A DNA stretch of 64,000 nucleotides from Streptomyces sp. McG3. GTDB lineage: Bacteria > Actinomycetota > Actinomycetes > Streptomycetales > Streptomycetaceae. A program made the position numbers and the translations under genes. Below, in pieces: positions 3,443 to 45,780 of this stretch. Numbering within the stretch: position 1 is the first letter of the stretch; the number at the start of each line of letters is the position of its first letter. The stretch lies in contig NZ_JAAXYC010000001.1 of NCBI RefSeq assembly GCF_018619185.1, positions 1-64,000 of the forward strand. Direction: 5' to 3'. Under the pieces are notes generated by a model. It made no database searches. It saw only the letters and a program-made list of their open reading frames with translations, and was not told the DNA's origin.

Positions 3443-3972
3443 CCGGTCATCCTTGGGGCTGTGAGGCTCGGGGCGATGGGCAGTCGGTCGACGGAGAGCT
3501 GGGTGATGGGGTGTATCCGCGGCAGGGCCATCGCCACGTAGTCCTCCGTGGCCAGGGCCACCGACCGGTCGAGGCGTGCCGCGTTGAAGAAGATCTCGTC
3601 GTGGACCAATAGTCCGGGGTCTGCCACCAGTTCGAGTTCGGGGTGACGTGCGAAGGGCATCACCGATCCGCTGACGCTGCCCGCCAGCCGCTCGGCCACG
3701 TCGCGCGTCGCGAACGACGCCTCCCTGCCCGCGTACATGTCCCGGAGCACGCCCAGGTCGACCTTGCGGTCGCCCGGCACGACCGCCAGGACGTACCGCC
3801 GGGACCGGCGGCCCGTGGCGACCCGGACGACCAGGCATTTGGCCGCCTGGGCGAGGGAGTGCCGGCGCAGGACGCTGGCGAGATCCGTGCGGCCCTCCGG
3901 GACGTGGTCCATCAGCCGGAACCGCGCCTGCCTGCGTTCCAGCTGGTCCAGCAGCCAGTCGTAGCCATTCAT
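3439..3972 (-). CDS. YbaK/ProX-type aminoacyl-tRNA deacylase
   Basis: The 177-residue product is a single YbaK/EbsC (prolyl-tRNA synthetase-associated) domain. This family hydrolyses wrongly charged aminoacyl-tRNAs in trans. The conserved lysine is in QAAKCLVV (Lys45), and the G-S-V-x-P-F loop near 115-122 matches the family GG-V-S-P-F signature. The ATG overlaps the stop of SerA (ATGA), so it is translationally coupled to serine and diaminopropionate supply genes. I infer that it clears tRNAs mischarged with a non-protein amino acid such as 2,3-diaminopropionate. A general housekeeping editing role cannot be excluded. Confidence 0.8.
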   Translation of the reverse strand: MNGYDWLLDQLERRQARFRLMDHVPEGRTDLASVLRRHSLAQAAKCLVVRVATGRRSRRYVLAVVPGDRKVDLGVLRDMYAGREASFATRDVAERLAGSVSGSVMPFARHPELELVADPGLLVHDEIFFNAARLDRSVALATEDYVAMALPRIHPITQLSVDRLPIAPSLTAPRMTG

Positions 3973-5561
3973 CCGGTCCGCTCCAGGCCCCAGGCGCGGG
4001 CCGCGTCGATCGCGGCGGCCCCGTCGTCGAGCAGCGCCTGATCCGCGGGTCCGCCCAGCCCCAGGGCGACCAGGGCCGCCTCTCCCGATCCGCCGCCCCG
4101 GCCGATCCACAGGGATTCGACGGGGACCCCGGCCCGGGTGAAGACCTCGCTGACCGCGCCGATCGCGCCGGGCCGGTCGGGGGCGAGGAAGAAGGCCAGG
4201 TCGCCGTCGAGCGCCACATCGGTCGCGTAGCCGCAGATCTCCACGAGGCGCGCGCCGGAGCGGAGCCCGCTCAGGGCGCCGGTCACCGACACCGGCTCAC
4301 CGGACGCCAGGGTGCCGTCGACCCGCACGAGACTGCGGTAGACGGGGCTGTCGGGGTCGGAGTGCACCGCGGTGCCCAGACCGCGCTCCTGGGCGATCAG
4401 CGGGGCGTTGACATAGCTGACACCACCGTCGACGACCGGGCTCAACGCCCCCTTGAGCACCGCCAGTTCCAGGGACCCCGCGTCGTGGCACGCGATCTCG
4501 CCGGACACCGTCACCCGCAACTGCGACGGCAGTCCGCCGGCCGTCGCCGTGAACAGCCGGCCGAGCCGCTCCACCACGGCCAGCCACGGGGCGAGTTCGG
4601 CGTCGACCTCGCCCATCCGCACATTGACCGCCTCCGGCACGAACCGGCCGGCCAGCGCCTCCCGCACCGACCGGGCGACCGCGACGCCCGCCCGCTCCTG
4701 CGCCTCCAGGGTGCTCGCGCCCAGATGCGGGGTGACGACCACGTTGTCCAGCTCGTACAACGGGGAGGTGGTGCAGGGTTCGGTCGCGAACACGTCGACG
4801 GCCGCGCCCGCGACGCGCCCCTCCTTCAGCGCCGCGTACAGCTCCGCCTCGTCGACGATCCCGCCCCGGGAGGCGTTGACGATCCGTACGTCCGGCTTGA
4901 CCCGGTGCAGCGCGTCGAAGCCGATCAGGCCCACCGTCTCCGGGGTCCTCGGAAGGTGGACGGTGAGGAAGTCCGCCTCGTCGAGGAGGGTGTCGAGCCC
5001 GACGCCGGACACCCCCGCGCGCTCGGCGTACCCGGCCTGCACATACGGGTCGTACGCGAGCACCCGCATCCCGAACGCCGCCATGCGGCGGGCGACCAGC
5101 GAGCCGATCCTGCCGAGCCCGATGATCCCGAGCGTCTTGTCGGCCAGCTCGACACCGGTGAACCGGCCTCGCTCCCAGCGGCCTTCCTTGAGCGCCCCGT
5201 GGGCCTGCGGGATGTTCCTGGCCACCGCCAGCAGCAGGCCCACCGTGTGCTCGGCCGCGCTGACGATGTTGGAGGTGGGCGCGTTGACCACCATGACGCC
5301 CGCCCGGGACGCGGCGGCCACGTCGACGTTGTCCAGGCCGACCCCGGCCCGGCCGATCACCTTGAGCCTCCGGCCGGCCGCGATGGCCTCCGCGTCCATG
5401 CGGGTGGCGCTGCGGATGAGTACGGCGTCGGCCCCCGGGAGTGCGTCGAGGAGGGCGCCCCGGTCGGCGCCGGAACAGCTCAGGATCTCGAAATCGGACC
5501 CCAGGGTGTCGACGGTGGCGGGAGAGAGCTCCTCGGCGATCAGAACGATTGGCTTGTGCAC
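3969..5561 (-). CDS. serA: D-3-phosphoglycerate dehydrogenase
   Basis: This enzyme oxidises 3-phosphoglycerate to 3-phosphohydroxypyruvate with NAD, the first step to O-phosphoserine. At 530 residues it is the long actinobacterial form: an NAD-binding GLGRIG at 148-153, the catalytic triad Arg232 (SRGG), Glu261 (ATEP) and His279 (PHLGAS), an intervening substrate-binding domain, and a C-terminal ACT domain from about 450 (D-R-P-G-A-I-G). The start is GTG at 5561 behind AAGGAA. O-phosphoserine is the substrate of SbnA, whose gene lies 58 nt upstream in the operon. This copy is thus probably a pathway-dedicated supplier of precursor, additional to a housekeeping SerA. Confidence 0.92.
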   Translation of the reverse strand: MHKPIVLIAEELSPATVDTLGSDFEILSCSGADRGALLDALPGADAVLIRSATRMDAEAIAAGRRLKVIGRAGVGLDNVDVAAASRAGVMVVNAPTSNIVSAAEHTVGLLLAVARNIPQAHGALKEGRWERGRFTGVELADKTLGIIGLGRIGSLVARRMAAFGMRVLAYDPYVQAGYAERAGVSGVGLDTLLDEADFLTVHLPRTPETVGLIGFDALHRVKPDVRIVNASRGGIVDEAELYAALKEGRVAGAAVDVFATEPCTTSPLYELDNVVVTPHLGASTLEAQERAGVAVARSVREALAGRFVPEAVNVRMGEVDAELAPWLAVVERLGRLFTATAGGLPSQLRVTVSGEIACHDAGSLELAVLKGALSPVVDGGVSYVNAPLIAQERGLGTAVHSDPDSPVYRSLVRVDGTLASGEPVSVTGALSGLRSGARLVEICGYATDVALDGDLAFFLAPDRPGAIGAVSEVFTRAGVPVESLWIGRGGGSGEAALVALGLGGPADQALLDDGAAAIDAARAWGLERTG

Positions 5562-5619: not shown

Positions 5620-6630
5620 TCAGCCGGCGCTCGTCACCAGAGGAGGCAGGTCGGCCGGGGCCGCCGGAACGGCGTCCCAGGTGTGCGGTGCGCCGAAGCG
5701 CTCCTCCACCCACGCGGGGTCGTACACCGAGTCGAGATAGCGGTCGCCCTGGTCCGGGGAGAGGGCCACCGCGGTGAGCCGCTCCCCCTCGGGCCGGCCG
5801 GCCAGCCAGCGCAGCGCGCCGCTCACGACCGTCCCGGTGGAGCCGCCGAACAGGAAGCCCCGCTGGGCGAGGGTCTGGCAGCTCTCCAGGCTGTCCCGCT
5901 CGGGCACCATCACGACGTCGTCGACGAGCCCGTCGTCGAGCAACTGGGGCCGTACGCCCGCCCCGAGGCCGGGTATGTGCCGGGTCAGGGCGGGGCCGCC
6001 GAAGGTCACGGAGCCGACGCTGTCGACGGCCACGATCCTCGTCTGCGGCCGCGTCTCCCGGAAGTAGCGGGCGCAGCCCATGAGGGTCCCGGTGGTTCCG
6101 GCGCCGACGAAGAGCACGTCCACCTCCGGGAACTGGGCGGCGACGGCGGGGCCGGTCGACCGGTAGTGCGCCAGCCAGTTGTGCGGGTTCACGTACTGGT
6201 TGAGCCACACGTAGTTGGGGTCGTAGTCGACGAGCCGCTGTACGTAGTCGATGCGGGCGCCCAGCAGGCCCCGGTGCTTGTCGGGGCGCGAGATGACCAG
6301 CACCCGGGCGCCGAACGACTCCATCAGGCGGCGGCTGGCCGGATTGCAGCGGCTGTCGGTGACGCAGACGAAGCCGTATCCCCGGTGGGCCGCGATCATG
6401 CTGAGCGCCACACCGAGATTGCCGGACGAGGACTCCACGAGCACGTCGCCCGGGGTGAGCGTGCCGTCGCGTTCGGCGGCCAGCACCATTTCCAGGGCGG
6501 CCTTCAGCTTGACCGAGCCCGCGAGATTGATCCCCTCGTACTTGAGGAAGAGGGGGACGTCGAAGACGGGCAGCAGATCCACGAAGACGTCGTCGACGTT
6601 GATCTCGTAGGGAGCGGATATGACCGTCAC
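5620..6630 (-). CDS. sbnA: SbnA-like N-(2-amino-2-carboxyethyl)-L-glutamate synthase
   Basis: This is a PLP enzyme of the cysteine synthase fold, 336 residues. The SVK motif gives the PLP lysine as Lys41, and SSSGNLG near 66-72 and GAGTTG near 170 are the cofactor-binding loops. In staphyloferrin B biosynthesis SbnA condenses O-phospho-L-serine with L-glutamate. The adduct is then split by SbnB to give L-2,3-diaminopropionate. Close coupling with an SbnB homologue (33 nt upstream) and with SerA downstream supports this over plain cysteine synthase. The start is GTG at 6630, with only a weak ribosome site. Confidence 0.9.
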   Translation of the reverse strand: MTVISAPYEINVDDVFVDLLPVFDVPLFLKYEGINLAGSVKLKAALEMVLAAERDGTLTPGDVLVESSSGNLGVALSMIAAHRGYGFVCVTDSRCNPASRRLMESFGARVLVISRPDKHRGLLGARIDYVQRLVDYDPNYVWLNQYVNPHNWLAHYRSTGPAVAAQFPEVDVLFVGAGTTGTLMGCARYFRETRPQTRIVAVDSVGSVTFGGPALTRHIPGLGAGVRPQLLDDGLVDDVVMVPERDSLESCQTLAQRGFLFGGSTGTVVSGALRWLAGRPEGERLTAVALSPDQGDRYLDSVYDPAWVEERFGAPHTWDAVPAAPADLPPLVTSAG

Positions 6631-6663: not shown

Positions 6664-7704
6664 CTAGGCGCGGGAGCGGCCGTAGCGGTCGAGCTCGTGG
6701 AAGAAGCCGTCGACGACGGCGAGTCCGCCCGCGTCGCGCAACTGGTCGTGGACGTAACGGCCGAGGGCGATGTCGAGCACGCCGAGACCGAACGGCGAGA
6801 ACACGACGGGGCGGTCGCCGGGCAGCTCGACCCGGCCCTCGATCACGTCGCACAGGGTGCCGTCGATGAAGTCGCGGTTCCCGGTGAGCTGTTCGGTCAG
6901 GTGGGGGGAGGTGTCCGCCTTCAGGCAGTGCTCGACGTCGTCGACGATGTTGGCGGACGCGAGCAGGATCTCCGGCGCCAGGTCCCGCAGCGACACGTTG
7001 AGGACCAGCGGGTTGTGGGCGAACCAGGAGGGGTCGTGCACGTGCGGGCTGCCGGCGACGGTGGCGAAGACCACCAGGTCGCTCTCCCGGATCAGTTCCT
7101 CGGCCGTCCCGTGCACCACGACGGGGGCGTCCCCGCGCCCGCCGAGGTAGTCCGCGAACGCCTCGCCGTGCGCAGCGGACAGGTCGTGGACGCCGAGCTC
7201 GTCGAAGGTCCAGCCGGTGGCCTCCAGGTAGTGGTGGACGTAGCGGGCGATGAGGCCGGTGCCGATGAAGCCGATCCGGCGCGGGCGTTCGGCCCCGCTG
7301 AGCCGGTCGGCGGCGAGGGCCGCCGAGGCGGCGGTCCTGGAGGCGCTGATGATGGAGCTCTCCAGGCAGGCGAACGGGTAGCCCGTCGTGTGGTCGTTGA
7401 GGATGAGGACGGCGGAGGCCCGCGGGATGCCCGCGGCCACGTTCTCCGGGAAGCTGGAGATCCACTTCAGGCCGTCGGTGGGACGGTCTCCGCCCACCGA
7501 GGCGGGCAGGGCGATGATCCGGGAGCTGGGGCGGTCCGGGAACCGCAGGAAGTACGAGGGCGGGTTGACCGAGTCGCCCCGGCCGTGCAGCCGGTAGACG
7601 TCCTCGACCAGGTTCACGACCTGCTTCTCGCTGCCGGTGAGAACCTGTGCCACCTGCGCGCCGGTGATGACGGCGAAGGGCGGCACGAGCGGCTGCTGGG
7701 ACAT
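6664..7704 (-). CDS. sbnB: SbnB-like 2,3-diaminopropionate synthase (ornithine cyclodeaminase family)
   Basis: This 346-residue protein of the ornithine cyclodeaminase/mu-crystallin family has its nucleotide-binding loop GTGLIA at about 148-153 and the family lysine in G-L-K-W (Lys80). SbnB oxidatively cleaves the SbnA product to L-2,3-diaminopropionate and 2-oxoglutarate, using NAD. The ATG at 7704 follows GGAG at good spacing. It lies 43 nt after the A-T-TauD gene and 33 nt before sbnA. The 2-oxoglutarate released is also the co-substrate of the TauD domain encoded next door. This is noted only as a coincidence of chemistry. Confidence 0.9.
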   Translation of the reverse strand: MSQQPLVPPFAVITGAQVAQVLTGSEKQVVNLVEDVYRLHGRGDSVNPPSYFLRFPDRPSSRIIALPASVGGDRPTDGLKWISSFPENVAAGIPRASAVLILNDHTTGYPFACLESSIISASRTAASAALAADRLSGAERPRRIGFIGTGLIARYVHHYLEATGWTFDELGVHDLSAAHGEAFADYLGGRGDAPVVVHGTAEELIRESDLVVFATVAGSPHVHDPSWFAHNPLVLNVSLRDLAPEILLASANIVDDVEHCLKADTSPHLTEQLTGNRDFIDGTLCDVIEGRVELPGDRPVVFSPFGLGVLDIALGRYVHDQLRDAGGLAVVDGFFHELDRYGRSRA

Positions 7705-7747
7705 GGGACTCCATCCATGGGCGGTGGGTGCGGTGGGAAGAGGCTGG

Positions 7748-10700
7748 TCAGTGGTGGGCCGGCACGGTGGCCGGGTCGCCGATGACGACCGCGATCCGCC
7801 GGTCCCCCTCGTAGGGCTCCCTGCTGTGCGCCATCCGCAGGTTGTCCACGACGAGGAGGTCGCCCGCCCGCCACGGCTCGCGGAGCGTGTGCTTCTCGTA
7901 CACCGCGTTGATCGTGAGCACGGTCTCCTCGTCGAGGCCCGCGCCTTTGCCGTAACGGCTGTTGAAGGGCAGTCCGGCGTCGCCGAACTCGAACATGAGG
8001 TACTCGCGGACGATCGGGTCGAGGGTCCACTCGTTGAGGAAGGCGATCTGGTTGAACCAGCCGCGCCGGCCGGTCACCGGGTGGGTGAGCACGGCGGCGG
8101 CGTACTGCCGGGTGAGCAGGTCCCCGTTGGACTGCGGGCGGCACTCGATGCCCCGCTCCGCGCAGTAGGCCTCGATGGCCGCGCGGTCGGTCGTGCCGAA
8201 GGCGTCCTCCAGGCCGACGCCCACCGTGTCGGTGTAGTTGCGGTCGACGAGCCAGCCCTCGGCCTCGAAGCGCGCCACCAGCTCGGCGGGGAGCGCCTCC
8301 AGGACGTCGGCGGAGTCGGAGACACCGGTGGCGCCGCCCGATTCGGGTGCGGTGAGGCAGGCGAAGAGCAGGGTGCCGGGCACCTCACGGGCGTAACTCA
8401 GCTCGTGGTGCATGCACATGGGCTGGTCGACGGGCCACTCGGAGGAGGTGTACACGCCGTCCGCGAGCCGTTGCCTCGGCGCGAAGCCCTCGCGTTCGGT
8501 CATCACCTGGTGCAGGAGTCCGCGGCCGACCCGGCCGACGGTGTCCGCGTCCCGCAGGCCGAGGCCCCGCACCAGCAGCGCACCGTGCTCCGCCACCGTG
8601 GCCCGTACCCGGCCGGCGTTCTCCGCCGCCCAGGCCGCCGGGTCCTCGGGGGCCGGGCCGTCCAGGGTGAGCACGGCGGGCCGGCCCTCGGTCCTGACCA
8701 CGTCGAACGGTGCCGCTTCCAGGGAGGTACGGGGCAGGGCGGCGGATCCGGCGGACGCGCCGTTCGTGGCGGGAGTCTCCCGGCCGCCGTCCGCGGGCGC
8801 GTCCTCGGTGCGGGCCTCCGGATCGTCGAGGAACGCGGCGAGGGCGTCGAGCCTCGGGCGCCGCACCACGTCGCGCAGGGTGAAGGCCCGCTCCATCCGG
8901 ACGACGAGCCGTACGGCGGAGAGGGACGTGCCGCCCAGCAGGAAGAAGTCGGCGGTGCGGCCGATCCGTTCCACGGGCAGTTTCAGCACGGCGGCCCATG
9001 CCTCGGCGAGCCGCAGTTCGGTGCCGGGGCGGGGCGCCTCGTACGCGTCGGCGTGCTCCTGCTCGGCGACCAGGGCGAGTTCGGCGGCGAGGGTGCGCAG
9101 GGCGCGCTTGTCCGTCTTGCCGTTCGGGGTGAGCGGCAGCGCGTCGAGGGGCTCGAACCGGTCCGGCACCATGTACGCGGGCAGCGCCTGTTCCAGCCGC
9201 TCGCGCAGGGCGTCGGACGGCTCGGCCGAGCCGACCTGGAAGCCGACCAGATGGCGGCCCCGGTCGGGCGAGTCGACGACGACGACCGCACCGTCGCGGA
9301 CTCCGGGCAGCCGCAGCAGCTGGTTCTCGATCTCCCCGATCTCGATGCGGAAGCCACGGATCTTGATCTGCGCGTCGCGCCGGCCGAGGAACTCCACGGA
9401 GCCGCCCGGCAGCCGGCGGCCGAAGTCGCCCGATCGGTAGAGCCGCTGACCGGGCCGGTGCGGATCCTCGCCGAAGGCCTCCGCGCTGCGCTCGGGGTCG
9501 TTGACGTACCCCCGTCCCACGCAGACGCCGGAGAAGACGATCTCGCCCGGCGCGCCGAGCGGTACCGGCCGCAGGTCCTCGTCGACGACGTACACGGAAA
9601 CGTTGCCGACCGCGTGCCCGAGCGGGACCGAGTCCCATACCGGCACGGAGGTCATGACCTCGTGGTTGGTGTCGTCCGACGTCTCCGTGAGTCCGTAGGC
9701 GTTCATCAGGGAGATGTGCGGGAAGCGCGCGAACCACCGGACGGCGAGTTCCTTCTTCAGCGCCTCACCGGTGACCGAGACGCAGCGCAGGGAAGGCAGC
9801 GCCCGGGGGCGTTCCTCCAGCCGGCTGAGCACCACCTCCAGATAGGAGGGGACGGCCTGGAGCACGGAGACCCCGCCCCGCTCGATCGTGTCGAGGTAGC
9901 GGTCGACGTCGAGGACGGCCTCCTGTTCGACGATCAGGGTGCGTCCGCCCACGACCAGGGCGGCGACCAGCTGCCACAGGGAGATGTCGAAGGACTGCGG
10001 TGCGGTCTGGGCGACCACGTGGCCCGCGCCGATCCCCTGGTCGTCGATCTTGGCGTACAGATGGTTGAGGAACCCGGCGTGCTCGCACATCGCTCCCTTG
10101 GGCTCGCCGGTGGAGCCCGAGGTGAAGTACAGGTAGGCGAGCCGGCCGGGACCGACGCGCACGCCCGGGTCGTGGATGGGGCGGTCCTCGGCGAGGGCGG
10201 CGCCGACGTCGAGGAGTTCGACGCCGGACGGCGCGGCCCGCCGCGCGTGGTCCGGGCCGCCGTCCTCGGTCAGGACCAGCCGGCAGCCGCTGCGGACCAG
10301 GGTGCGGGACATCCGGTCGACGGGGGCGTGCGGCTCGATCGGCAGATAGGCGGCGCCGGCCTTGAAGACGCCGATGACCGAGGCGAGCCAGTCCAGGTTG
10401 CGCTCGGTGACGACGGCCACGACGGCCTCGTCCCCCAGGTCCCGGGCCAGGAGCGCGTGGGCGATCCGGTTGGCCCGGGTGTTGAGCTCCTCGTACGTCC
10501 AGGTGTCCTCGCCGTGCACGGCCGCGAGGTCCAGGGGCCGCAGCGCGACCTGGTCCTCGAACAGTTCATGGAACCGCTTGTCGGGCAACTCCCTCGCCGG
10601 ACCCGCGAGTTCGACTATCTGATGGTGGAGTTCGGCAGCGGACAGCAGGCTCTTGCCACGGGCCCGCGCGTCCGGCTCCGCCACGAGCCGGCCGACGGCC

Positions 10701-11230
10701 GCGAGGTAGTACCCGGCGATCCGGCCGGCCGCTTCGGCGTCCAGCACGTCGGTACGGTGGCGGATCAGCAGCGCGAGACCCTCGGGGCCACGGCGCAGCG
10801 CGGCCGTGAGCACGGTGTCCGTGAGCGGCTCCGCCTGCTCCCCCTCCGTCCGCCCCAGGTCCAGTACGGCCTCGAACGCCGCCTCGACGGGGGTGGCGGC
10901 GGCCTGTCCGGCGGCGGCGAACAGCTCGCGCCAGGTCTCGCCCCGGAGCGAGAGGCCCACCGGGCGGAGCGCGTCGGCCCGTCCGGGCGCACGGTAGCCG
11001 CTCACCACCGAGGACTCGCCGCCGAGAGCGGTGAGGACGGCGGTGTGGGCGGCGAGCAGGAGGGCCTCCCAGCCGACGCCCGAGCGGCGGGCGAGCAGCC
11101 GGACCCGGGCGGCGAGCCGGAGCGGGACCGGGCGGATCAGATCCTCGTGCGCGGTCCGCGCCGGCTGACCGGGCGGCGGAGGTGGCACCCAGCGCGGGAC
11201 GGTCCGCTGGGGTGTTCCGGTCACGGTCAT
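7748..11230 (-). CDS. Stand-alone A-T-TauD fusion with an N-terminal half condensation domain
   Basis: This 1160-residue protein activates an amino acid, holds it on a carrier domain and probably oxidises it there. Residues 1-215 resemble the C-terminal lobe of a condensation domain, without the HHxxxDG lobe. The A domain covers about 216-735 (FTSGSTG near 373, GYGD-type core, PNGKTDK near its end). The T domain has LGGTSL (Ser about 765). The TauD/SyrP-like Fe(II)/2-oxoglutarate oxygenase covers 850-1160, with ligands in MHHELSY (about 941) and A-H-S plus the 2-oxoglutarate Arg in G-D-R-R-I. The specificity residues read DIWQSTADDK. The two acidic residues suggest a substrate with a side-chain amine, such as diaminopropionate. 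The start overlaps the isomerase stop (ATGA). It is the only visible A domain able to serve the A-less modules. Confidence 0.88.
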   Translation of the reverse strand: MTVTGTPQRTVPRWVPPPPPGQPARTAHEDLIRPVPLRLAARVRLLARRSGVGWEALLLAAHTAVLTALGGESSVVSGYRAPGRADALRPVGLSLRGETWRELFAAAGQAAATPVEAAFEAVLDLGRTEGEQAEPLTDTVLTAALRRGPEGLALLIRHRTDVLDAEAAGRIAGYYLAAVGRLVAEPDARARGKSLLSAAELHHQIVELAGPARELPDKRFHELFEDQVALRPLDLAAVHGEDTWTYEELNTRANRIAHALLARDLGDEAVVAVVTERNLDWLASVIGVFKAGAAYLPIEPHAPVDRMSRTLVRSGCRLVLTEDGGPDHARRAAPSGVELLDVGAALAEDRPIHDPGVRVGPGRLAYLYFTSGSTGEPKGAMCEHAGFLNHLYAKIDDQGIGAGHVVAQTAPQSFDISLWQLVAALVVGGRTLIVEQEAVLDVDRYLDTIERGGVSVLQAVPSYLEVVLSRLEERPRALPSLRCVSVTGEALKKELAVRWFARFPHISLMNAYGLTETSDDTNHEVMTSVPVWDSVPLGHAVGNVSVYVVDEDLRPVPLGAPGEIVFSGVCVGRGYVNDPERSAEAFGEDPHRPGQRLYRSGDFGRRLPGGSVEFLGRRDAQIKIRGFRIEIGEIENQLLRLPGVRDGAVVVVDSPDRGRHLVGFQVGSAEPSDALRERLEQALPAYMVPDRFEPLDALPLTPNGKTDKRALRTLAAELALVAEQEHADAYEAPRPGTELRLAEAWAAVLKLPVERIGRTADFFLLGGTSLSAVRLVVRMERAFTLRDVVRRPRLDALAAFLDDPEARTEDAPADGGRETPATNGASAGSAALPRTSLEAAPFDVVRTEGRPAVLTLDGPAPEDPAAWAAENAGRVRATVAEHGALLVRGLGLRDADTVGRVGRGLLHQVMTEREGFAPRQRLADGVYTSSEWPVDQPMCMHHELSYAREVPGTLLFACLTAPESGGATGVSDSADVLEALPAELVARFEAEGWLVDRNYTDTVGVGLEDAFGTTDRAAIEAYCAERGIECRPQSNGDLLTRQYAAAVLTHPVTGRRGWFNQIAFLNEWTLDPIVREYLMFEFGDAGLPFNSRYGKGAGLDEETVLTINAVYEKHTLREPWRAGDLLVVDNLRMAHSREPYEGDRRIAVVIGDPATVPAHH

Positions 11231-11946
11231 GGCTCTCTCCTGTCGGACGGGCCGCCCTGGTCCGGGACCACCGCGGTGAACGGGGGCGCGTCGAACGGCG
11301 CGTCGCTGCGGCCGTCCCACTCCTCGCCGCGCACGGCGGACACGAACGCCCCGACCCGCTCGGCGCCCCAGAACGCCTCACGGCCGTGCATGAAGAACGG
11401 CACCCCGAAGGCGTCGTCGTGGTAGGCGGCGATCAGGCACTCCACGCCCCTGATCCGCAGGTCGGGGTCGTCGACCGCGTCGGCGACCGACGGGTCGAGG
11501 CCCAGCTCGCCCGCGATGCCGGCGATGGTCGAGCGCTCGGCGAGGTCCAGGCCCTGGTTCCAGCGCGCCCGGTAGGCGAGGTCGACGAACTGACGGCCCA
11601 GGCCGCGCTCCTCGGCCGCGAGGTAGGCGAGGTGCGACACCTCCCAGTGCGGGGCGCGGTCCACCGGCCAGGTCACCTGCCAGCCACGGGCGTGCGCCCA
11701 GCGGCGCGCGTCACGCAGGATGTAGAAGTTCTTGGAGCGGTGCATGGGCATCACCGGCAGGGTGACCCCGGCCTCGGAGAGCAGGTGGGTGGACTCCTCG
11801 TCCGGTTCCCAGTAGGGAATCCACTCGATCCGGTCGAGCACGTCCGGGTGCTTCTCGCTGAGGTCGCGGTAGGCGAACCACGAGTACGGGCTGCGCAGCG
11901 AGAAGTACCATCGGGGGTTCTTCTTCCGGCGGGCGGCGCTGCTCAC
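11227..11946 (-). CDS. DsbA-fold isomerase (2-hydroxychromene-2-carboxylate isomerase family)
   Basis: This 239-residue thioredoxin-fold protein has SPYS at 19-22 in place of the CxxC of redox-active DsbA. This is the signature of the glutathione-dependent isomerase branch (N-terminal W-Y-F-S-L-R-S-P-Y-S). It is embedded between the ketoreductase and the A-T-TauD gene with 4-nt overlaps on both sides (GTGA start at 11946). Proteins of this family accompany highly reducing type II PKS sets that make cinnamoyl lipids, where they are linked to double-bond E/Z isomerisation. That role for a polyenoyl thioester is inferred here from context. Confidence 0.82.
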   Translation of the reverse strand: MSSAARRKKNPRWYFSLRSPYSWFAYRDLSEKHPDVLDRIEWIPYWEPDEESTHLLSEAGVTLPVMPMHRSKNFYILRDARRWAHARGWQVTWPVDRAPHWEVSHLAYLAAEERGLGRQFVDLAYRARWNQGLDLAERSTIAGIAGELGLDPSVADAVDDPDLRIRGVECLIAAYHDDAFGVPFFMHGREAFWGAERVGAFVSAVRGEEWDGRSDAPFDAPPFTAVVPDQGGPSDRREP

Positions 11947-12686
11947 AGGGCGATCCCCCCGTCTATCTGGAACACGGATCCCGTGATGTAGCTGGCGCGG
12001 TCGGAGGCCAGGAAGGCGACCAGTTCGGCGACTTCACCGGCGGTGCCCATCCGGCCGAGCGCGACGCCCGCGAGGGCCTCGTCGCGGAACTTCTCGGAGA
12101 CGGCGGCGACCATGTCGGTGTCGACGAAGCCGGGCGCCACCGCGTTGACGCGGATGCCGTAGCGGCCGGCCTCCTTGGCCAGGGACCTCGACAGGCCGAT
12201 GATCCCGGCCTTGGACGCGGCGTAGTTCGTCTGGTTGGCGTTGCCGTAGACGCCCGCCACCGACGAGATGGTGACGATGCTCCCGCGCCGGCGCTTCATC
12301 ATCCCGAAGGCGACCGCACGGCAGACGTGGAAGACGCCGTCGAGGTTGGTGGAGAGGACGGAGGTCCACTCGTCGTCGGACATCATCACCAGCGCCTTGT
12401 CGCGGGTGATGCCGGCCGAGGGGACGGCGGCCTCGATGGGGCCGAGGTCCTTCTCGGTCGCGGCGACCCAGTCGCGTACGGCGGCGGCGTCGCTGACGTC
12501 GACCCTGCGGTGGAGCACCCGGGCGCCCAGCGCCTCGGCCTCCTTCGCCAGGATCTCCGCCGTCTCCGACTGCGAGCGGTAGCAGAAACTGATGTCGTAG
12601 CCGTCCTCCGCGAGCTTCAGCACGGCGGCACGGCCGATTCCGCGGGAACCCCCGCTGATCAGGGCCACGGGCCTGGTGTCGGTCAT
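11943..12686 (-). CDS. 3-oxoacyl-ACP reductase (FabG-like)
   Basis: This is a short-chain dehydrogenase of 247 residues. It has the NADPH-binding motif G-G-S-R-G-I-G (12-18), catalytic Ser142, Tyr155 and Lys159 (N-Y-A-A-S-K), and the FabG-type tail ending Y-I-T-G-S-V-F-Q-I-D-G-G. It should reduce the 3-keto group after each condensation of the cluster's type II PKS. Its ATG overlaps the stop of the preceding dehydratase gene (ATGA). Confidence 0.92.
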   Translation of the reverse strand: MTDTRPVALISGGSRGIGRAAVLKLAEDGYDISFCYRSQSETAEILAKEAEALGARVLHRRVDVSDAAAVRDWVAATEKDLGPIEAAVPSAGITRDKALVMMSDDEWTSVLSTNLDGVFHVCRAVAFGMMKRRRGSIVTISSVAGVYGNANQTNYAASKAGIIGLSRSLAKEAGRYGIRVNAVAPGFVDTDMVAAVSEKFRDEALAGVALGRMGTAGEVAELVAFLASDRASYITGSVFQIDGGIAL

Positions 12687-13204
12687 CGGACGGCCTTTCC
12701 TGGGGACGACGGGGTGGTGGGCCGCGTTGCGGCGGGGTCGGCGGGGCGAAGCAGTTCCGCGGCGCGGAAGGCCATCACCATCCGCGTCACGGTCATCACG
12801 GTGTCGTCCCCCCGGTGGCTGCTGCCCTCGAAGATCACCGAGTCGGTGAGGGACCGGGTGATGCTCACCCGGTGCTCGATCACGTCGCCCGGGAGGACGG
12901 GCAGGTGGAACGCGGCGTCCGCGACGGAGCCGAACAGCATCACCTGGCCCTGCGGCGCTTCGGCGACCGCCGAGGCGAGGAGTCCGGCCGACTGGCCCCA
13001 GGACTCGATGAGCAGGGACGGCGGGTAGTCGAACGGGGCGTCGGCCGGTATCCCGGCGTAACAGGGCTCGTTGAGCGTGATCGCCTTGACGGTACGGATC
13101 CGCTCGCCGGGCACGAGTTCGGTCACCCGGTCCACGAGCAGCATCGGGTAGCGGTGCGGCAGCAGGTCGGTGACCCGGGGCAGGGCGGGTGCGGGCGCGG
13201 TCAT
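12683..13204 (-). CDS. FabZ-like dehydratase subunit lacking the catalytic histidine
   Basis: This 173-residue hotdog protein starts with the FabZ-like LPHRYPMLLVDRV (15-27). The second FabZ box is altered. The usual G-H-F-P is G-I-P-A (51-54), so the catalytic His is missing, while the helix Glu is kept (IES, Glu67). The adjacent gene (13201-13605) encodes a small hotdog with the His. The pair may form one working heterodimer, as in HadAB-type dehydratases. The start overlaps the stop of the upstream gene (ATGA). The proline/threonine-rich tail after about 150 looks unstructured. Confidence 0.82.
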   Translation of the reverse strand: MTAPAPALPRVTDLLPHRYPMLLVDRVTELVPGERIRTVKAITLNEPCYAGIPADAPFDYPPSLLIESWGQSAGLLASAVAEAPQGQVMLFGSVADAAFHLPVLPGDVIEHRVSITRSLTDSVIFEGSSHRGDDTVMTVTRMVMAFRAAELLRPADPAATRPTTPSSPGKAVR

Positions 13205-13605
13205 CGCTCACCTCGGGCGGTCGTGTAGCGCAGCCGTACGGTGGCGGCCTTGCCCCGCTGGGTGACGGCCACGGCGTCGCAGCGCAGGCCGGCCTCCGTG
13301 GGGCGCCACGTGAGGGTCAGGTGGAGGGTGTCTCCCGGGTAGACGGCCCCGGCGAACCGTGCCGACTCGACGGCGGCGAGGTCGGAGGGGGCCGGGGCGG
13401 CTTCCCCGTCGGTCGCCGCCCGCTGCACGCACTCCAGCACGCAGACTCCGGGGAAGATCGGGAAGTCGGGGTAGTGGCCGGCGAAGACCGGTTCGCTCTC
13501 TGCAACCTCGGCCCGCGCGACGGCGGTCAGACCGTCCTCGGTCCGGGACTCCACCCGCACCTCGGCGGCGACCGGGCTCACCCGGGTCCGCGGGGCGGCG
13601 GTCAT
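13201..13605 (-). CDS. Small 3-hydroxyacyl-ACP dehydratase subunit (hotdog)
   Basis: This 134-residue hotdog protein has A-G-H-Y-P-D-F-P-I-F-P-G-V (His44) and L-E-C (Glu58). Both catalytic residues of the FabA/FabZ family are therefore in place. It lacks the LPHRYP box that its neighbour at 12683-13204 retains. The two proteins are complementary halves of the usual FabZ signature, and their genes overlap by 4 nt. The expected role is dehydration of 3-hydroxyacyl-ACP to the 2-enoyl form. There is no enoyl reductase in the window, so double bonds would be kept. Confidence 0.85.
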   Translation of the reverse strand: MTAAPRTRVSPVAAEVRVESRTEDGLTAVARAEVAESEPVFAGHYPDFPIFPGVCVLECVQRAATDGEAAPAPSDLAAVESARFAGAVYPGDTLHLTLTWRPTEAGLRCDAVAVTQRGKAATVRLRYTTARGER

Positions 13606-17390: not shown

Positions 17391-18514
17391 GCGACGCCTC
17401 CCACGACGGCGACGGCGTTGACCCCGCCGAAGCCGAAGCTGTTGACCTGGGCCAGCCGCACCGGCGAGACCAGGGGTTCGCCGGCCACCAGCCGCAGCCC
17501 CGCGCCCTCGGGCAGCGGGTCGGCCAGGCCGGCGACGTGCGGCACGGTCCCGCTGTCCAGGCAGCTCAGCGCCACGACCAGGCTGAGCAGCCCGGCCGAC
17601 CCCGAGGTGTGCCCGGTCAGGGACTTGATGCCGGTGAGGGCCGGTCCGGGTGCGTCGAAGACCTCCGCGGTCACGGTGGCCTCCGTACGGTCGTTGAGCG
17701 GGGTGCCGGTGCCGTGCATCACCACCAGGTCGATCTCGGGCGGGGTCACACCGGCCCTGTCGTGGGCCTGCCGTACGGCGGCCTCGACGCCCGCCGCGTC
17801 CGGCGCGGTCTGGTGGTGGGCGTCGCAGTTGACGGCGACCGAGCGCAGCAGGCCGCGCGCCGGGCGGCTCCCGGCGGAGCGGCTCAGGACGACGGCCGCC
17901 GCGCCCTCGCCGAGGATGGTGCCCTGGCGGTCCTTGTCGAAGGGGCGTACCGAGGGCGGCGGATCGAACTGGACCCGGTCGGCCTGGCCGAACATGCTCT
18001 CGGTGACCACGTCGCAGCCGGCCACCACGACCGCCTCCGCCTCCCCCGCCTCCAGCAGGTCCCAGGCGAGCGCCAGGGCGTAGAGGGAGGCGGAGCAGGC
18101 GCCCGCGAACGTGTGGGTGTCGACGGCGCCGAAGCGGCTGCGCAGCGCGTCCTCGAAGTGCAGCCCGTCGGCCTCGAACGGGACGCCGTCGCGCCACCAC
18201 AGCTCCAGGGAGCGCAGTTCGCGCAGGCCCGTGCCGACGAGTACGGGGATGCCCGCGAGGTCTTCGGGCAGCCCCGCGTCCTCGACGGCCTGGCGGACCG
18301 CCTCGACGAGGAAGCGGGTGGCCCGGCCCGGTTCGTCGACGCCGTCGGTCTCCCGGTCGTCGATCTCGAAGAGCTGCTGGGCGTTGAATCGGGACCGGTC
18401 GAAGGCGCGGAGGGGGGCGAGTCCGCTGCGGCCCTCGCAGAGGCTCGCGAAGATCGCGTCCGGGTCGCCGCCGATGCTGCTGACCGCGCCGGCGCCGATG
18501 ATCGGGTAGGTCAT
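17387..18514 (-). CDS. Ketosynthase, type II PKS (second)
   Basis: This 375-residue beta-ketoacyl-ACP synthase has a full triad: Cys140 (G-A-C-S-A-S), His267 (M-H-G-T-G-T) and His302 (G-H-T-S-G). The C-terminal glycine-rich N-S-F-G-F-G-G-V-N-A is intact. Its ATG overlaps the stop of the first ketosynthase (ATGA), and its stop overlaps the following chain-length factor. Having two complete ketosynthases and two non-catalytic ones suggests two KS/CLF pairs, perhaps acting at different chain lengths. Confidence 0.9.
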   Translation of the reverse strand: MTYPIIGAGAVSSIGGDPDAIFASLCEGRSGLAPLRAFDRSRFNAQQLFEIDDRETDGVDEPGRATRFLVEAVRQAVEDAGLPEDLAGIPVLVGTGLRELRSLELWWRDGVPFEADGLHFEDALRSRFGAVDTHTFAGACSASLYALALAWDLLEAGEAEAVVVAGCDVVTESMFGQADRVQFDPPPSVRPFDKDRQGTILGEGAAAVVLSRSAGSRPARGLLRSVAVNCDAHHQTAPDAAGVEAAVRQAHDRAGVTPPEIDLVVMHGTGTPLNDRTEATVTAEVFDAPGPALTGIKSLTGHTSGSAGLLSLVVALSCLDSGTVPHVAGLADPLPEGAGLRLVAGEPLVSPVRLAQVNSFGFGGVNAVAVVGGVA

Positions 18515-19767
18515 GGACGGCCGCCGTCCGCGTCGTACTTGCCCAGGATCACGATGGCGTTGTTGCCGCCGAACGCGAGCCCGTTGTTCTGGACGATCCG
18601 CAGGTCGGCGTCGACGGCGTGGTTGGGCACGCAGTCGATGTCGCACTCCGGGTCGGTCCGGTGGTGGTTGATCGTCGGCGGGATGAAGCCGTGCGTGATG
18701 GCGAGGCCGCAGGCGATCGCGCCGAGCGCGCTGGCCGCGCCCATGGTGTGGCCGAGCATCGACTTCAGGGAGATGGTGCGGGGGGTCGCGTCGCCGAAGA
18801 CGCTGCGGATGGCGCCGGCCTCGGTGATGTCGTTCGCCTTGGTGCCGGTGCCGTGGGCCGAGATCAGGTCGACCTCGTCGGGCTTCACCCCGGCGTTCGC
18901 CAGGGCGATGCTCATGCACTGCGCGACGCTCTCCCCGTTGGGCGCGACCTGGTGGTACGCGTCGCAGTTGAGCCCGTAGCCGAGCACTTCGGCGTAGATC
19001 GTGGCGCCGCGGGCCAGGGCGGAATCCAGGCTCTCCAGGACCAGGATCCCGGCTCCCTCGCCGGTGAGGATGCCCTTGCGGTCGGCGTCGAAGGGCTGGC
19101 AGTAGTCGGGCGCGATGGTCCCGAGCCGGTAGAAGCCGGTGAACGTCTTGCGGCACATCGCGTCGGCGCCTCCGCACAGGGCGAATTCCACCTCGCCCGA
19201 GCTGACCGCGTCGAAGCCGTACCCGATGGCGTAGTTGCCCGCGGAACAGGCCGTGGCGATGGTGGGCGCCTCGACGTCGGTGAGCTCCAGTTCCTGCGCG
19301 ATGGCTGTGGAGAGCCGGGCCGCCGAGACCCGCCGGACGACCTCTGCGTCCATGCCGTGAGGTCCTCCGGCGAGTTCGGCGGCCACCAGCTGATCCAGCT
19401 CGTAGGACTCGCCGTCCGTGGTGCCGACGGAGATGAGCCCCCGTCGGCCGGCGAGTTCCGCGAGGTCCAGATCAGCGTCCTGCACCGCCATCCGCGCCGC
19501 CGCGACGGCGAAGCGGCTGGCGCGCCCCAACTCCCGTACCGGAGTACGGGAAATCCACTGCTCGGGATCGAATCCGGTGACCTCGCAGCCGTTGACATGG
19601 GCGAAGCCCTCGACGTCGAACACCGAGATCGGACTGACACCGCTACGGCCCGCCCGCAGACTTTCGGTGAATTCCTCGGCCCCGATGCCAATACTGGAGA
19701 TCACTCCGAAGCCGGTGAGAACCACCCGGCGTTTCCCGGTTGCGGCGCCGGGGCTTGCTGAGGACAT
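18511..19767 (-). CDS. Ketosynthase, type II PKS/FabF-like (first)
   Basis: This is a 418-residue FabF-like condensing enzyme with Cys174 (T-A-C-S-A-G), His305 (A-H-G-T-G-T) and His340 (M-L-G-H-T-M-G). Its length is normal for the family. The ATG follows AGGGGA at good spacing and lies 50 nt after the ACP gene. It should carry out decarboxylative condensations on the ACP encoded next to it. With the ketoreductase and dehydratases it would make a conjugated or polyunsaturated acyl chain for the N-terminus of the peptide. Confidence 0.92.
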   Translation of the reverse strand: MSSASPGAATGKRRVVLTGFGVISSIGIGAEEFTESLRAGRSGVSPISVFDVEGFAHVNGCEVTGFDPEQWISRTPVRELGRASRFAVAAARMAVQDADLDLAELAGRRGLISVGTTDGESYELDQLVAAELAGGPHGMDAEVVRRVSAARLSTAIAQELELTDVEAPTIATACSAGNYAIGYGFDAVSSGEVEFALCGGADAMCRKTFTGFYRLGTIAPDYCQPFDADRKGILTGEGAGILVLESLDSALARGATIYAEVLGYGLNCDAYHQVAPNGESVAQCMSIALANAGVKPDEVDLISAHGTGTKANDITEAGAIRSVFGDATPRTISLKSMLGHTMGAASALGAIACGLAITHGFIPPTINHHRTDPECDIDCVPNHAVDADLRIVQNNGLAFGGNNAIVILGKYDADGGRP

Positions 19768-20750: not shown

Positions 20751-21518
20751 GTGCCCGGGCCACTGTTCCGGCCGCTGCCCCGGCCACAGGCGGAGCGCAC
20801 CCTGTTCTGTCTCAGCTTCTGCGGGGGCGGTACGGCACCCTTCCGCGCGTGGGCCGACGCCCTGCCCGAGGACACCGAACTGGTCCTGTACTGCTATCCC
20901 GGGCGCGAGGGACGCTATGGCGTCCCGTTCGCACGGACCTGGGAGCACCTGCTCGGCGGGGCGCTGGCCGCACTCGCCGGCATCGCCGCCCGCCCCTACG
21001 TACTGGCGGGCCACAGCATGGGTGCGTGGGTCGCCTTCGACCTGGCGGTGCGCGCCGAGCGTGCCGGGATCGCCCCGCCGCGGGGGCTGGTCGTCTCGGC
21101 CGCGGGCGCCCCCGACCGCCCGGCCGACCGGGACGCGCCGCCCCACACGGGGAACACCGACGAGGAGCTGCTCGACTGGATGTTCACGGTCGGTCAGGTC
21201 GCCGACGCGGTCCGGGACGAGCCGGAGCTGCTGCGGATGGCGGTGGAGGTGCTCCGGGCGGACCTACGGACGGTCGAGGGCTACCGGTACCGGCCCGGGG
21301 AGCTGGTCGGCGCGCCGCTCCAGCTGCTCCGCGGCGCGGACGACGACGTGGACGAGGAGGACCTGGAGCGCTGGCGGCGCCTGACCACGGGCCCGTTCGA
21401 GGCGGCCCTCCTGCCGGGCGGGCACTTCTACACGCCCGAGGTGTGGAGCCGGCTGCCCGCGCACATGAGTGTGCTCCACCCGGTGGGGCCGGGCGGAGCA
21501 GCGGGAAGACCGTCCTGA
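20751..21518 (+). CDS. Type II thioesterase (second copy)
   Basis: This 255-residue thioesterase has Ser89 in G-H-S-M-G and the C-terminal G-G-H-F-Y His box, as in the TEII at 2642. The start is GTG at 20751 behind GAGAGGA. It is divergent from the main operon and transcribed alone. Editing of NRPS carrier domains is the expected role. Because the cluster has A-less modules, one of the two TEIIs could also take part in aminoacyl transfer, but nothing in the sequence decides this. Confidence 0.87.
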   Translation: MPGPLFRPLPRPQAERTLFCLSFCGGGTAPFRAWADALPEDTELVLYCYPGREGRYGVPFARTWEHLLGGALAALAGIAARPYVLAGHSMGAWVAFDLAVRAERAGIAPPRGLVVSAAGAPDRPADRDAPPHTGNTDEELLDWMFTVGQVADAVRDEPELLRMAVEVLRADLRTVEGYRYRPGELVGAPLQLLRGADDDVDEEDLERWRRLTTGPFEAALLPGGHFYTPEVWSRLPAHMSVLHPVGPGGAAGRPS

Positions 21519-26558: not shown

Positions 26559-27629
26559 TCAGCCGCGGGTGCAACGCTTGCACACCCCGCGCCGCCGGAA
26601 GTAGTAGGCGAGCGTGGCGGCCGCCAGGGCGATGCCCCACACCGGCCAGATCATCTCCGGAACCGTGGCTCCCCAGTCGTCCCTCTGGTTGTCGAAGGAT
26701 CCCTGCAGGTGCAGCCGGATGTACATGATCCCGGCGATCGTCACCATGATGGAGACCAGCGTGGCCGGGACGACCGCCAGGGTCAGCGGAACCCGCCGGC
26801 CCCGGAGGCCCAGCATCCACCGGGGGAAGACCTCGCCCCAGCGCTGCACCAGGCCCAGGGTGAGCAGCGAGCCCAGCGCCCCCATGGTGGCCAGCGCGGC
26901 GCCGGCGATCCAGAGGTTGTCCTCCTTGCCCTCCTCCCACAGCTTCTCGGAGATGCCGAGCGGGATGCCCAGGGCCCAGGCCCACCGGGTGCTGGCGTAC
27001 AGCAGGGGGACGATGACCGCCGTGTACGCCGCCCGCCTGCCCCAGCGGGCCGCGGCCTCCGGCGAGGTCCAGCCGGCGCCCGAGTCGCTGCGCCCGCAGC
27101 CGGTGCACGCGCCGGACGTGCGGCGCTGGTAGATGATCGCGGAGGCGAGCATGAGGCCCACCGAGACCACCGCGAAGAGCTGGTTGATCACGGTCCAGTT
27201 GATCGCGCTGAACTTCAGCATGAAGACATAGGCGAGATTGCCGAGGATGCGGAAGTCGGCGAGCGTGCTGAACACCGCGGCCGCGGAGAACACGGAGGCG
27301 CCCACCAGGACCCGGGTGGGGATCCGCCGCCGGCCCGGCAGCGCCAGAAGGAGTGCGACCACCGAGCTGCCCAGGAACCCGCCCGCGATCCACGGCGCCA
27401 GCCGGTCGCGGCCGACGTGCTCGAAGGCCGAGTACTCCGGGTTGGCGTCGTCGGCGCCGAACGGGAAGCCGTCCCCGCCGAAGGCCCAGTAGGTGTGGGC
27501 GAGCCCGTAGAGAAGGAGCGCGAGAAAGGCCACGTAGCCGATCAGGGCCGTCCAGTTGAATCGCCCGCGCACCGGACCTGGTGCACCGGCCGCCGTCCGC
27601 GATGACATGTGCTCGGTCACCTGGGTCAT
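26559..27629 (-). CDS. Integral membrane protein with two CxxC motifs
   Basis: I do not recognise the family of this 356-residue protein. Eight transmembrane helices can be placed, at about 25-48, 75-95, 105-127, 138-165, 196-220, 240-262, 285-312 and 322-345. A cytosol- or periplasm-facing loop holds C-T-G-C and the C-terminus holds C-K-R-C, so the two pairs may together bind a metal. The ATG at 27629 follows AAGGAGGAAG, a strong ribosome site. It lies 182 bp after the last NRPS gene on the same strand. Immunity or transport are guesses only. Confidence 0.7.
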   Translation of the reverse strand: MTQVTEHMSSRTAAGAPGPVRGRFNWTALIGYVAFLALLLYGLAHTYWAFGGDGFPFGADDANPEYSAFEHVGRDRLAPWIAGGFLGSSVVALLLALPGRRRIPTRVLVGASVFSAAAVFSTLADFRILGNLAYVFMLKFSAINWTVINQLFAVVSVGLMLASAIIYQRRTSGACTGCGRSDSGAGWTSPEAAARWGRRAAYTAVIVPLLYASTRWAWALGIPLGISEKLWEEGKEDNLWIAGAALATMGALGSLLTLGLVQRWGEVFPRWMLGLRGRRVPLTLAVVPATLVSIMVTIAGIMYIRLHLQGSFDNQRDDWGATVPEMIWPVWGIALAAATLAYYFRRRGVCKRCTRG

Positions 27630-27730
27630 GATGCTTCCTCCTTGGATCTTCTCTCTGATCAGCATTCCTGGCCGGGCCGCCCGGCACATCTGCCGAACGG
27701 CAGATCCCGCACGGCCGGACCGGGCAGCGG

Positions 27731-30800: not shown

Positions 30801-31770
30801 GCCGTCAGATCGGTGTTCCGCACCCGCCTCAGCAGCTCCCGGAAGTCCGGGGTGCCGGAGAGGTCCGTGCGTAGCACCAGGGTGTTGACGAAGAAGCCGA
30901 CGAGCTCGTCGAGCGCCTCGTCACCCCGGCCGGCCACCACGGTGCCCACCGGGATGTCCGTGCCGCCGCCCACCCGGTGCAGCGTCGCGGCCACGGCGGC
31001 GTGCAGCACCATGAACAGGCTCGCGCCGCCCTCGTCCGCCAGCCGGTGGACGCCCTCGACGACATCGTCGGGGAAGCGCAGCTCCACCTGCCCGCCCGGG
31101 TTGCCGGCCTCGGCCGAACGCGGGCGGTCGACCGGCAGGTCCAGCTCCTCCGGCAGCCCGGCCAGGGCCGTCCGCCAGTGGGCCAGCTGCCGCCCGTAGG
31201 GGCTCTCCGGGTCGTTCTCGTCCCCGAGGGTGCGCCGCTGCCACAGGGCGTAGTCCGCGTACTGCACGGGCAGGGGGACGAACTCCGGCTCCACTCCTGC
31301 CAGTCGGGCCGCGTAGGCGTGGCCGAGGTCCCGGGCGAGCGGCGCCAGCGAGGATCCGTCTCCCGCGATGTGGTGCAGGACGAGGTCCAGGACGTGCTCG
31401 CGCGGCGCGAGGCGCAGCAGCCGCGCCCGCAGCGGGATGTCGGCCGCCAGGTCGAACACCGACGCCGCCGACTCCTTGAGGGACCCCTCCAGGCCGTCCT
31501 CGGTCACCGCTTCGACGGGGAGCGGGACGCTGTACTCCTCCGGGGCGAGGATCCGCTGGCGCGGGGCGCCGCCCTCGACGGGGAAGACGGTGCGCAGGCT
31601 CTCGTGGCGGTCCACCACGTCGCCGACGGCCGCCTCCATCGCCCCGGGGTCCACCTCGCCGAGCAGCCGCACGGCCAGCTGGATGGTGTACGAGCCGGTG
31701 GTGTCCTCCTCCACCGAGTCGATGAACCAGAGCCGCCGCTGGGCGTGCGAGAGCGCAATCGCCGCCGGCC
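27812..31770 (-). other. Module 10: C-A-T-TE (branched-chain-like residue, release)
   Basis: The C domain is of the LCL kind (S-H-A-Q-R-R-L-W-F), fitting the preceding module without E. The A-domain pocket reads DAYFWGVVYK, close to Ile/Val pockets, so an aliphatic residue is likely. The T domain (LGGDSI near 28755) is followed by a single type I thioesterase from about 28630. Confidence 0.75.
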
Positions 31771-45600: not shown

Positions 45601-45780
45601 CAGGTTCTCGTGCCGGTCCAGCAGCGCCCGCACCGAGGCGCGCAGCACCTCGGTGCGCGGGTCGCCCTCCAGGTCGAGGCCGAACTGGACGGTGTACACG
45701 TCGATCTCGCTCCGGTCGTAGAGCGAGTGGAAGAGCAGGCCCTCCTGGAGGGGAGCCAACGGCAGCACGTCGTCCAGCCG
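42637..45780 (-). other. Module 6: C-T-E with no adenylation domain
   Basis: The C domain is DCL type ([18 protein letters not shown]). Only about 50 residues separate it from the T domain (LGGDSI near 44283), where an A domain would need about 500. The E domain is intact (HHLAVDG). Trans loading and a D residue are expected. Confidence 0.88.

Follow-up and report, generated by a model that had tools for sequence, protein, structure and literature searches.

The window analysed here comprises 64,000 nucleotides of Streptomyces sp. McG3 (contig NZ_JAAXYC010000001.1, positions 1 to 64,000) and, judged from its genes alone, is part of a cinnamoyl-type nonribosomal peptide cluster. An open reading frame (ORF) on the reverse strand (7748-11230, ATG at 11230, uninterrupted by stops) encodes a protein of 1,160 residues, referred to below as the loader, which joins half a condensation (C) domain, an adenylation (A) domain, a carrier (T) domain and a TauD-type Fe(II)/2-oxoglutarate oxygenase domain. 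The original prediction had described this fusion, and the Pfam matches bear it out. The A domain spans residues 224-705 (9116-10561), with AMP-binding matching residues 224-575 (3.7e-75) and AMP-binding_C residues 633-705. The T domain (residues 740-801, 8828-9013; PP-binding, 5.9e-11) has a GGTS motif, and the TauD domain (residues 862-1146, 7793-8647; 1.3e-38) carries the H-x-E and distal His iron ligands, as had been claimed; all four matches exceed their cut-offs. The N-terminal 215 residues (10586-11230) align with the latter half of the Condensation profile alone (positions 190-283), at an E value of 0.1, below the cut-off, while the same region in two relatives gives 7.6e-9 and 1.7e-6, one of which exceeds it. 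Inspection of this N-terminal sequence found no HHxxxDG motif. With the match only partial and the motif missing, we regard this part as the remnant C-terminal half of a condensation domain and not as a working one. The binding pocket reads by motif as DIWQSTADDK (in what we take to be the PheA numbering), with the Asp-Asp pair that had been noted. These domains fill all 1,160 residues, and no TIGR02353 polymerase domain is among the Pfam families of the loader. A whole-protein search of its own genome and a profile scan of ORFs of at least 500 residues agree that this is the sole free-standing A domain in the window, as stated earlier.

The start codon of the loader overlaps the stop of the upstream DsbA-type gene (11227-11946) by 4 bp. 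Downstream, on the same strand, lie genes for SbnB (6664-7704), SbnA (5620-6630) and a phosphoglycerate dehydrogenase-like protein (3969-5561), separated by gaps of 43 bp (loader to SbnB), 33 bp and 58 bp. SbnB scores 413.7 bits against TIGR03944 (cut-off 326.9) and SbnA 390.1 bits against TIGR03945 (cut-off 349.95); both exceed the NCBIfam equivalog cut-offs and identify the SbnA/SbnB route to L-2,3-diaminopropionate (Dap). The dehydrogenase-like protein is a possible source of O-phosphoserine. The loader had been said to be co-transcribed with the Dap genes; the overlap and the tight spacing are consistent with this but do not prove it. Between 3800 and 14700 no promoter-like site was found, and the two terminator-like sites, against 1.5 expected, are uninformative.

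Motif and profile scans resolve the nonribosomal peptide synthetase (NRPS) into ten modules encoded on the reverse strand and read in the order N3, N2, N1. N3 (58146-63971, its frame open to 64430 on the contig) contains M1-M2 as [C-T][C-A-T-E], where E is an epimerisation domain. N2 (42637-59091) contains M3-M6 as [C-A-T-E][C-A-T][C-A-T-E][C-T-E], and N1 (27812-42820) contains M7-M10 as [C-T-E][C-A-T-E][C-A-T][C-A-T-TE], ending in a thioesterase (TE) domain. Three of the ten modules have no A domain, and they are those named in the original prediction, with both kinds of scan in agreement: M1 (C-T, approximately 62850-64000 and extending to about 64430 on the contig, T motif at 62960), M6 (C-T-E, 42640-45900, T motif at 44301) and M7 (C-T-E, approximately 39580-42613, T motif at 41119). 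A recognition feature common to these three acceptor carriers was considered and was not borne out by the T and C identities, module by module: the T domain of M1 is closest to that of M4, and those of M6 and M7 resemble the T domains of other E-bearing modules. In the M5 E domain (about 45900-47200), HHxxxDG and EGHGR occur together in only two of the 11 clusters compared below (G005 and G013), the window not being one of them. The C domain that follows M5 groups with C domains that follow E-bearing modules.

Relatives of the loader were collected by scanning one genome per species. This gave 337, from which the best 80 loci were kept; the ranking used the full-length protein, with its TauD part. 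The window and ten of these genomes with readable NRPS genes form a cinnamoyl-type set; G003 and G004 (L013, L014) stand outside the scoring of A-less modules, and the count for M1 omits G001 and G013. The M6-M7 pair is A-less in all 11 of these cassette-bearing clusters, and M1 is A-less in all nine for which the M1 protein is in hand. Close pairs exist among them (window/G001, G008/G012, G009/G010 and G006/G007), so that the 11 clusters are not 11 independent cases. As controls, nine cassette-free cinnamoyl-type regions were selected, with their NRPS genes still unseen, on isomerase identity and contig size; the regions stop at the stretch edges, and eight contain NRPS genes (G371 showed none). 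Five of the eight have no A-less module (G493, G432, G376, G350 and G374). The other three (G085, G322 and G155) have one each, in every case beside two free-standing A-T ORFs; those of G085 are 34-35% identical to the loader. Across the 11 clusters and these three controls, every A-less module seen thus accompanies a free-standing A-T protein. A second NRPS type (L042/G011) has an A-less last module (C-T-TE) together with a cassette of A-T, TauD, SbnB and SbnA.

The only other free A-T protein within positions 1-100,000 of the contig is an A-T-TE protein outside the window (92,373-95,393). We weighed it as a second loader. Three of ten relatives with conserved A-less modules lack it at an E value of 1e-100, and in G010 its homologue lies 1.9 Mb from the NRPS; on these grounds it is not the loader. 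G005, G006 and G007 have the homologue on the same contig as the NRPS; in G001, G002 and G009, which are drafts or consist of separate contigs, it is on a different one.

The gene set recurs across many Streptomyces and some other bacteria. Among the 80 loci, SbnB (at least 48% identity) is found in 72, SbnA (at least 50%) in 65 and TauD (at least 45%) in 78; the TauD figure is biased because TauD belonged to the query, and contig ends account for some of the missing SbnA and SbnB. Querying with the A domain by itself brings up matches at an E value of 1e-130 or below in 101 of 293 genomes of the order, all within the genus of the window; this threshold also admits a distant class without SbnB. 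From the 114 places found in this way, 20 were picked by hand from ranks lower than the best 30, reaching down to the weaker matches; two appear to repeat loci of the larger set (L142 = L070, L154 = L033). All 14 sampled loci with an A-domain identity of at least 59% have TauD, SbnB and SbnA. Of 81 A domains compared, 78 have the same pocket code. In 59 of the 80 loci, a protein of the Pls/PosA polymerase type directly precedes the A-T gene (BLAST with the TIGR02353 domain of L050). Fifty-one of these partners have a carrier and no A domain, five have an A domain of their own (L018, L031, L048, L060 and L068) and three are cut by a contig end. Exceptions aside, the usual acceptor lacks an A domain, which is the pattern expected of a trans loader. 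The five partners with their own A domains could make a polymer of two kinds of residue.

Some loci vary the arrangement. In L050 (9932-13177) and 35 others among the 80, the carrier is followed by a thioesterase domain (A-T-TE), which may serve transfer or proof-reading. At L156 (3518-4588, 13403-14650) and L160 (3023-4165), distant A-T-TE relatives sharing the pocket pair lie near an SbnA-like enzyme that scores below the SbnA cut-off; L156 adds a methylaspartate mutase E gene. In L145 (3292-4410) and L148 (3390-4886), a further TauD-family gene follows a cassette that has no acceptor; the neighbours are a class II DAHP synthase (L145) and a tryptophan-halogenase-like gene with a P450 (L148). 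L044 (9722-12919) encodes a fused A-T-TauD protein with the differing code DIWQATCDEK, a C-T ORF downstream and no SbnB match. Given the divergent code and the missing SbnB, it may use another substrate, and it possibly represents the same architecture for a different amino acid. A pyridoxal phosphate enzyme of this locus (7131-8429) bears a weak likeness to enduracididine and capreomycidine enzymes.

The oxygenase domain has the marks of the TauD/TfdA family: a Pfam match above cut-off, H-x-E...H and a C-terminal Arg. H-x-E and the distal His are invariant in a 38-row alignment. In the larger alignment 79 of 80 rows keep the two His ligands, and at least 97% keep the Glu, a figure taken from near-invariant positions and not from its own column count (L046 being a broken row). 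The predicted fold (mean pLDDT 86.8) superimposes on At3g21360 with a Z score of 29.7 (rmsd 2.5, 287 aligned) and on taurine dioxygenases with Z of about 20 (rmsd 3.4-4.0, 247-252 aligned); the fold search groups the domain with At3g21360 and the TauD family and indicates no substrate. Of 81 loci, 12 have TauD fused to the A-T protein, 68 encode it separately and one shows no TauD. On the A-domain tree, fusion and separation change at least seven times, at least five of these forced by well-supported branches; it is a quick tree, with several fused rows on long branches. That the two proteins have repeatedly joined or split while staying linked is the strongest sign in the sequences that TauD would act on the residue held by this carrier. 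A second TauD gene (contig positions 65,919-66,896, outside the window; L009:5919-6896), upstream of N3, is 37% identical to the fused domain, and its relative in L042 (80%) directly precedes the A-T gene.

The domain make-up, the A-less acceptors, their conservation and their linkage are read from the DNA itself. From these we infer the substrate, the oxidation on the carrier and the transfer. Our preferred reading, held with a little more than even confidence, is a stand-alone Dap loader with an in-cis oxygenase that feeds the A-less modules. SbnA and SbnB would produce Dap, and the A domain would adenylate it and load the T domain of its own chain. The TauD domain fused to it would then oxidise carrier-bound Dap, perhaps at C3, consuming 2-oxoglutarate, which we assume SbnB also releases. 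The residue would finally move on to the carriers of M1, M6 and M7. The parts of this reading differ in strength. The protein is very probably a trans loader, and with scarcely less assurance Dap would be the amino acid loaded; both proposals of the original prediction, trans loading and Dap, appear well supported by the comparison across genomes. Oxidation while the residue is on the carrier seems likely, somewhat less firmly than either. It had been put forward earlier, and it gains from the recurrent fusion and the conserved ligands, not from chemistry.

Hydroxylation at C3 is a tentative and rather doubtful assignment. Dap has two carbons besides the carboxyl that are open to oxidation. 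Epimerisation requires a hydrogen at C-alpha, and the E domains after M6 and M7 are intact in their motifs across the 11 clusters (HHxxxDG or its DA variant in 22 of 22, EGHGR in 21 of 22, the sole miss being M7 of G002, where the ORF is split). This counts against dehydro and C-alpha-hydroxy residues at these positions at that stage, and the dehydro residue (sp2 C-alpha) that had been considered is unlikely at M6 and M7. On chemical reasoning, C3-hydroxy Dap would be a carbinolamine, stable when N-acylated and otherwise prone to losing ammonia or water. Overall, the observation behind the original prediction is confirmed and its interpretation is partly supported.

Several known systems invite comparison. 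In Fe(II)/2-oxoglutarate halogenases, the carboxylate ligand of the iron motif is missing. SyrB2, the modifying enzyme of syringomycin, presumably depends on the same cofactor. The loader TauD has H-x-E, and is thus of the hydroxylase and not the halogenase kind. In the syringomycin system as described, the stand-alone A-T protein SyrB1 holds the amino acid for the modifying enzyme and an A-less module of SyrE receives it (PMC8949500). The loader shares with it the stand-alone A-T protein and the A-less acceptor in the same cluster; it differs in its fused oxygenase, its three acceptors and the Dap genes alongside. It works like SyrB1/SyrB2/SyrE, yet it is a different system. Stand-alone A-T proteins of ramoplanin and enduracidin likewise complement a module in trans, and the accessible descriptions of them mention no oxygenase domain (PMC8949500). 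The PDAP synthetase of S. albulus is reported to activate Dap (PMC4668381) and is a single A-T-polymerase chain with a separate Dap locus (PMC4668381, PMC10522769). Common to both are Dap from SbnA/B-like enzymes and the TIGR02353 polymerase domain, which in the loader relatives sits beside the A-T protein. Unlike the one-protein Pls/PosA enzymes, these relatives keep A-T separate from the polymerase and have TauD. Kitacinnamycin, skyllamycin, epoxinnamide and the coprisamides share the type II polyketide synthase (PKS), the isomerase and the large NRPS with the window (PMC6510318, PMC9321520, PMC4778507, PMC13192320), and the coprisamides are described as containing Dap; no TauD-fused Dap loader figures in the accessible parts of these descriptions. 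We place the loader among the trans-loading A-T systems, as a form of its own. Searches of the open-access literature gave no account of this combination, and the loader may already be described in the subscription literature.

A number of observations weigh against the proposed Dap loader with its in-cis oxygenase, beginning with the acceptors. The carriers of M1, M6 and M7 have no feature that separates them from those of the other modules. G374, which turned out cassette-free contrary to expectation, encodes an A-T protein that stands alone, with 75% identity to the A-T-TE protein on the contig of the window, and yet has no A-less module, so that an A-T protein need not imply one. At L144, L145, L148 and L149 no acceptor lies within some 8 kb of the cassette, and an A domain of its own is found in five of the 56 readable Pls-type partners. 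No SyrC-like shuttle was recognised among the annotated genes (not all ORFs of the window are annotated, and no SyrC query was made); the only shuttle candidate among them is the free-standing thioesterase. Loading of NRPS modules in trans by other A domains is known (PMC8949500), and the A domains of neighbouring modules, or another free one, might fill M1, M6 and M7 while the loader protein makes something else. This is very improbable given the co-occurrence of cassette and A-less modules in all 11 cinnamoyl-type clusters and in the second NRPS type, and the one other free A-T protein within contig positions 1-100,000 is not conserved with the A-less modules. For the substrate, the one characterised Dap polymer synthetase has Phe at position 2 of its pocket code (PMC10522769), where the loader has Ile. 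The T-A-D-D-K ending, earlier suggested as a mark of diamino acids, gained no support from the literature searched, and we found no published match to the code. Six of the 20 sampled loci (51-56% A-domain identity, same Asp-Asp pair) lack SbnB within about 8 kb, and just two of these six have TauD. The A domain might then activate Ser, 2,4-diaminobutyrate or a Dap derivative, with the Dap genes serving a different step. SbnA and SbnB are, however, linked at all of the closer sampled loci, and an SbnA-like enzyme is present at five of the six distant ones (of three scored, one is above and two are below the SbnA cut-off), which leaves a different substrate decidedly unlikely.

The remaining objections concern the oxygenase. 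In L046 the TauD gene (12300-13400) is broken (its frame shifts, an internal portion is gone and the distal His is lost), while the A-T, SbnB and SbnA genes look intact; the locus is a natural test of the need for oxidation. Reviews, as far as their accessible text goes, describe the Dap of the coprisamides, which are cinnamoyl peptides, as plain. Both points would suit the loading of plain Dap in trans, with TauD adding nothing to the final residue or acting on a minor part only. The near-universal iron ligands and the presence of TauD at every close locus of the sample instead suggest selection to keep the enzyme active, and plain Dap seems unlikely. TauD could also work in trans and hydroxylate a residue elsewhere in the peptide, such as one of Asp/Asn type at M2 or M4, whose codes are Asp/Asn-like; stand-alone TauD enzymes work in this manner, and TauD enzymes are able to act on other carriers. 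Against this, TauD accompanies the loader even where the partner is a Pls/PosA-type polymerase, and the second TauD gene could serve instead; we consider such a role quite improbable.

The DsbA-type protein is probably the isomerase of cinnamoyl biosynthesis. The type II PKS ketosynthase (18511-19767, reverse strand), FabA-like dehydratases, the DsbA-type isomerase and the NRPS are found together, as expected of clusters for cinnamoyl-containing nonribosomal peptides, in which the isomerase is described as having a role (PMC6510318). The free-standing thioesterase (20751-21518, forward strand) is possibly an aminoacyl shuttle or an editing enzyme. Between NRPS N1 and an ABC transporter gene, 26559-27689 encodes a 376-residue protein with hydrophobic segments and no Pfam or NCBIfam match. 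Beyond the window, contig positions 66893-70903 (L009:6893-10903) hold, next to the NRPS genes, the gene of a protein of 1,336 residues that matches PA14 and RHS repeats.

More generally, it is possible rather than probable that a widespread cassette of SbnA, SbnB, Dap A-T protein and TauD, of which the window has one version, yields carrier-bound oxidised Dap for A-less acceptors of unrelated kinds, NRPS modules here and Pls/PosA-type polymerases in many relatives. If so, one would expect a peptide containing three oxidised Dap residues and also a common oxidised-Dap polymer not yet described. Because fused, separate and broken TauD genes all occur in nature, the oxidation step is open to direct testing. 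A fused loader and oxidase would be a compact route to one modified residue at several positions from a single gene, and the presence of these genes next to A-less polymerases in many Streptomyces suggests a common building block, as yet uncharacterised, which may be oxidised Dap.

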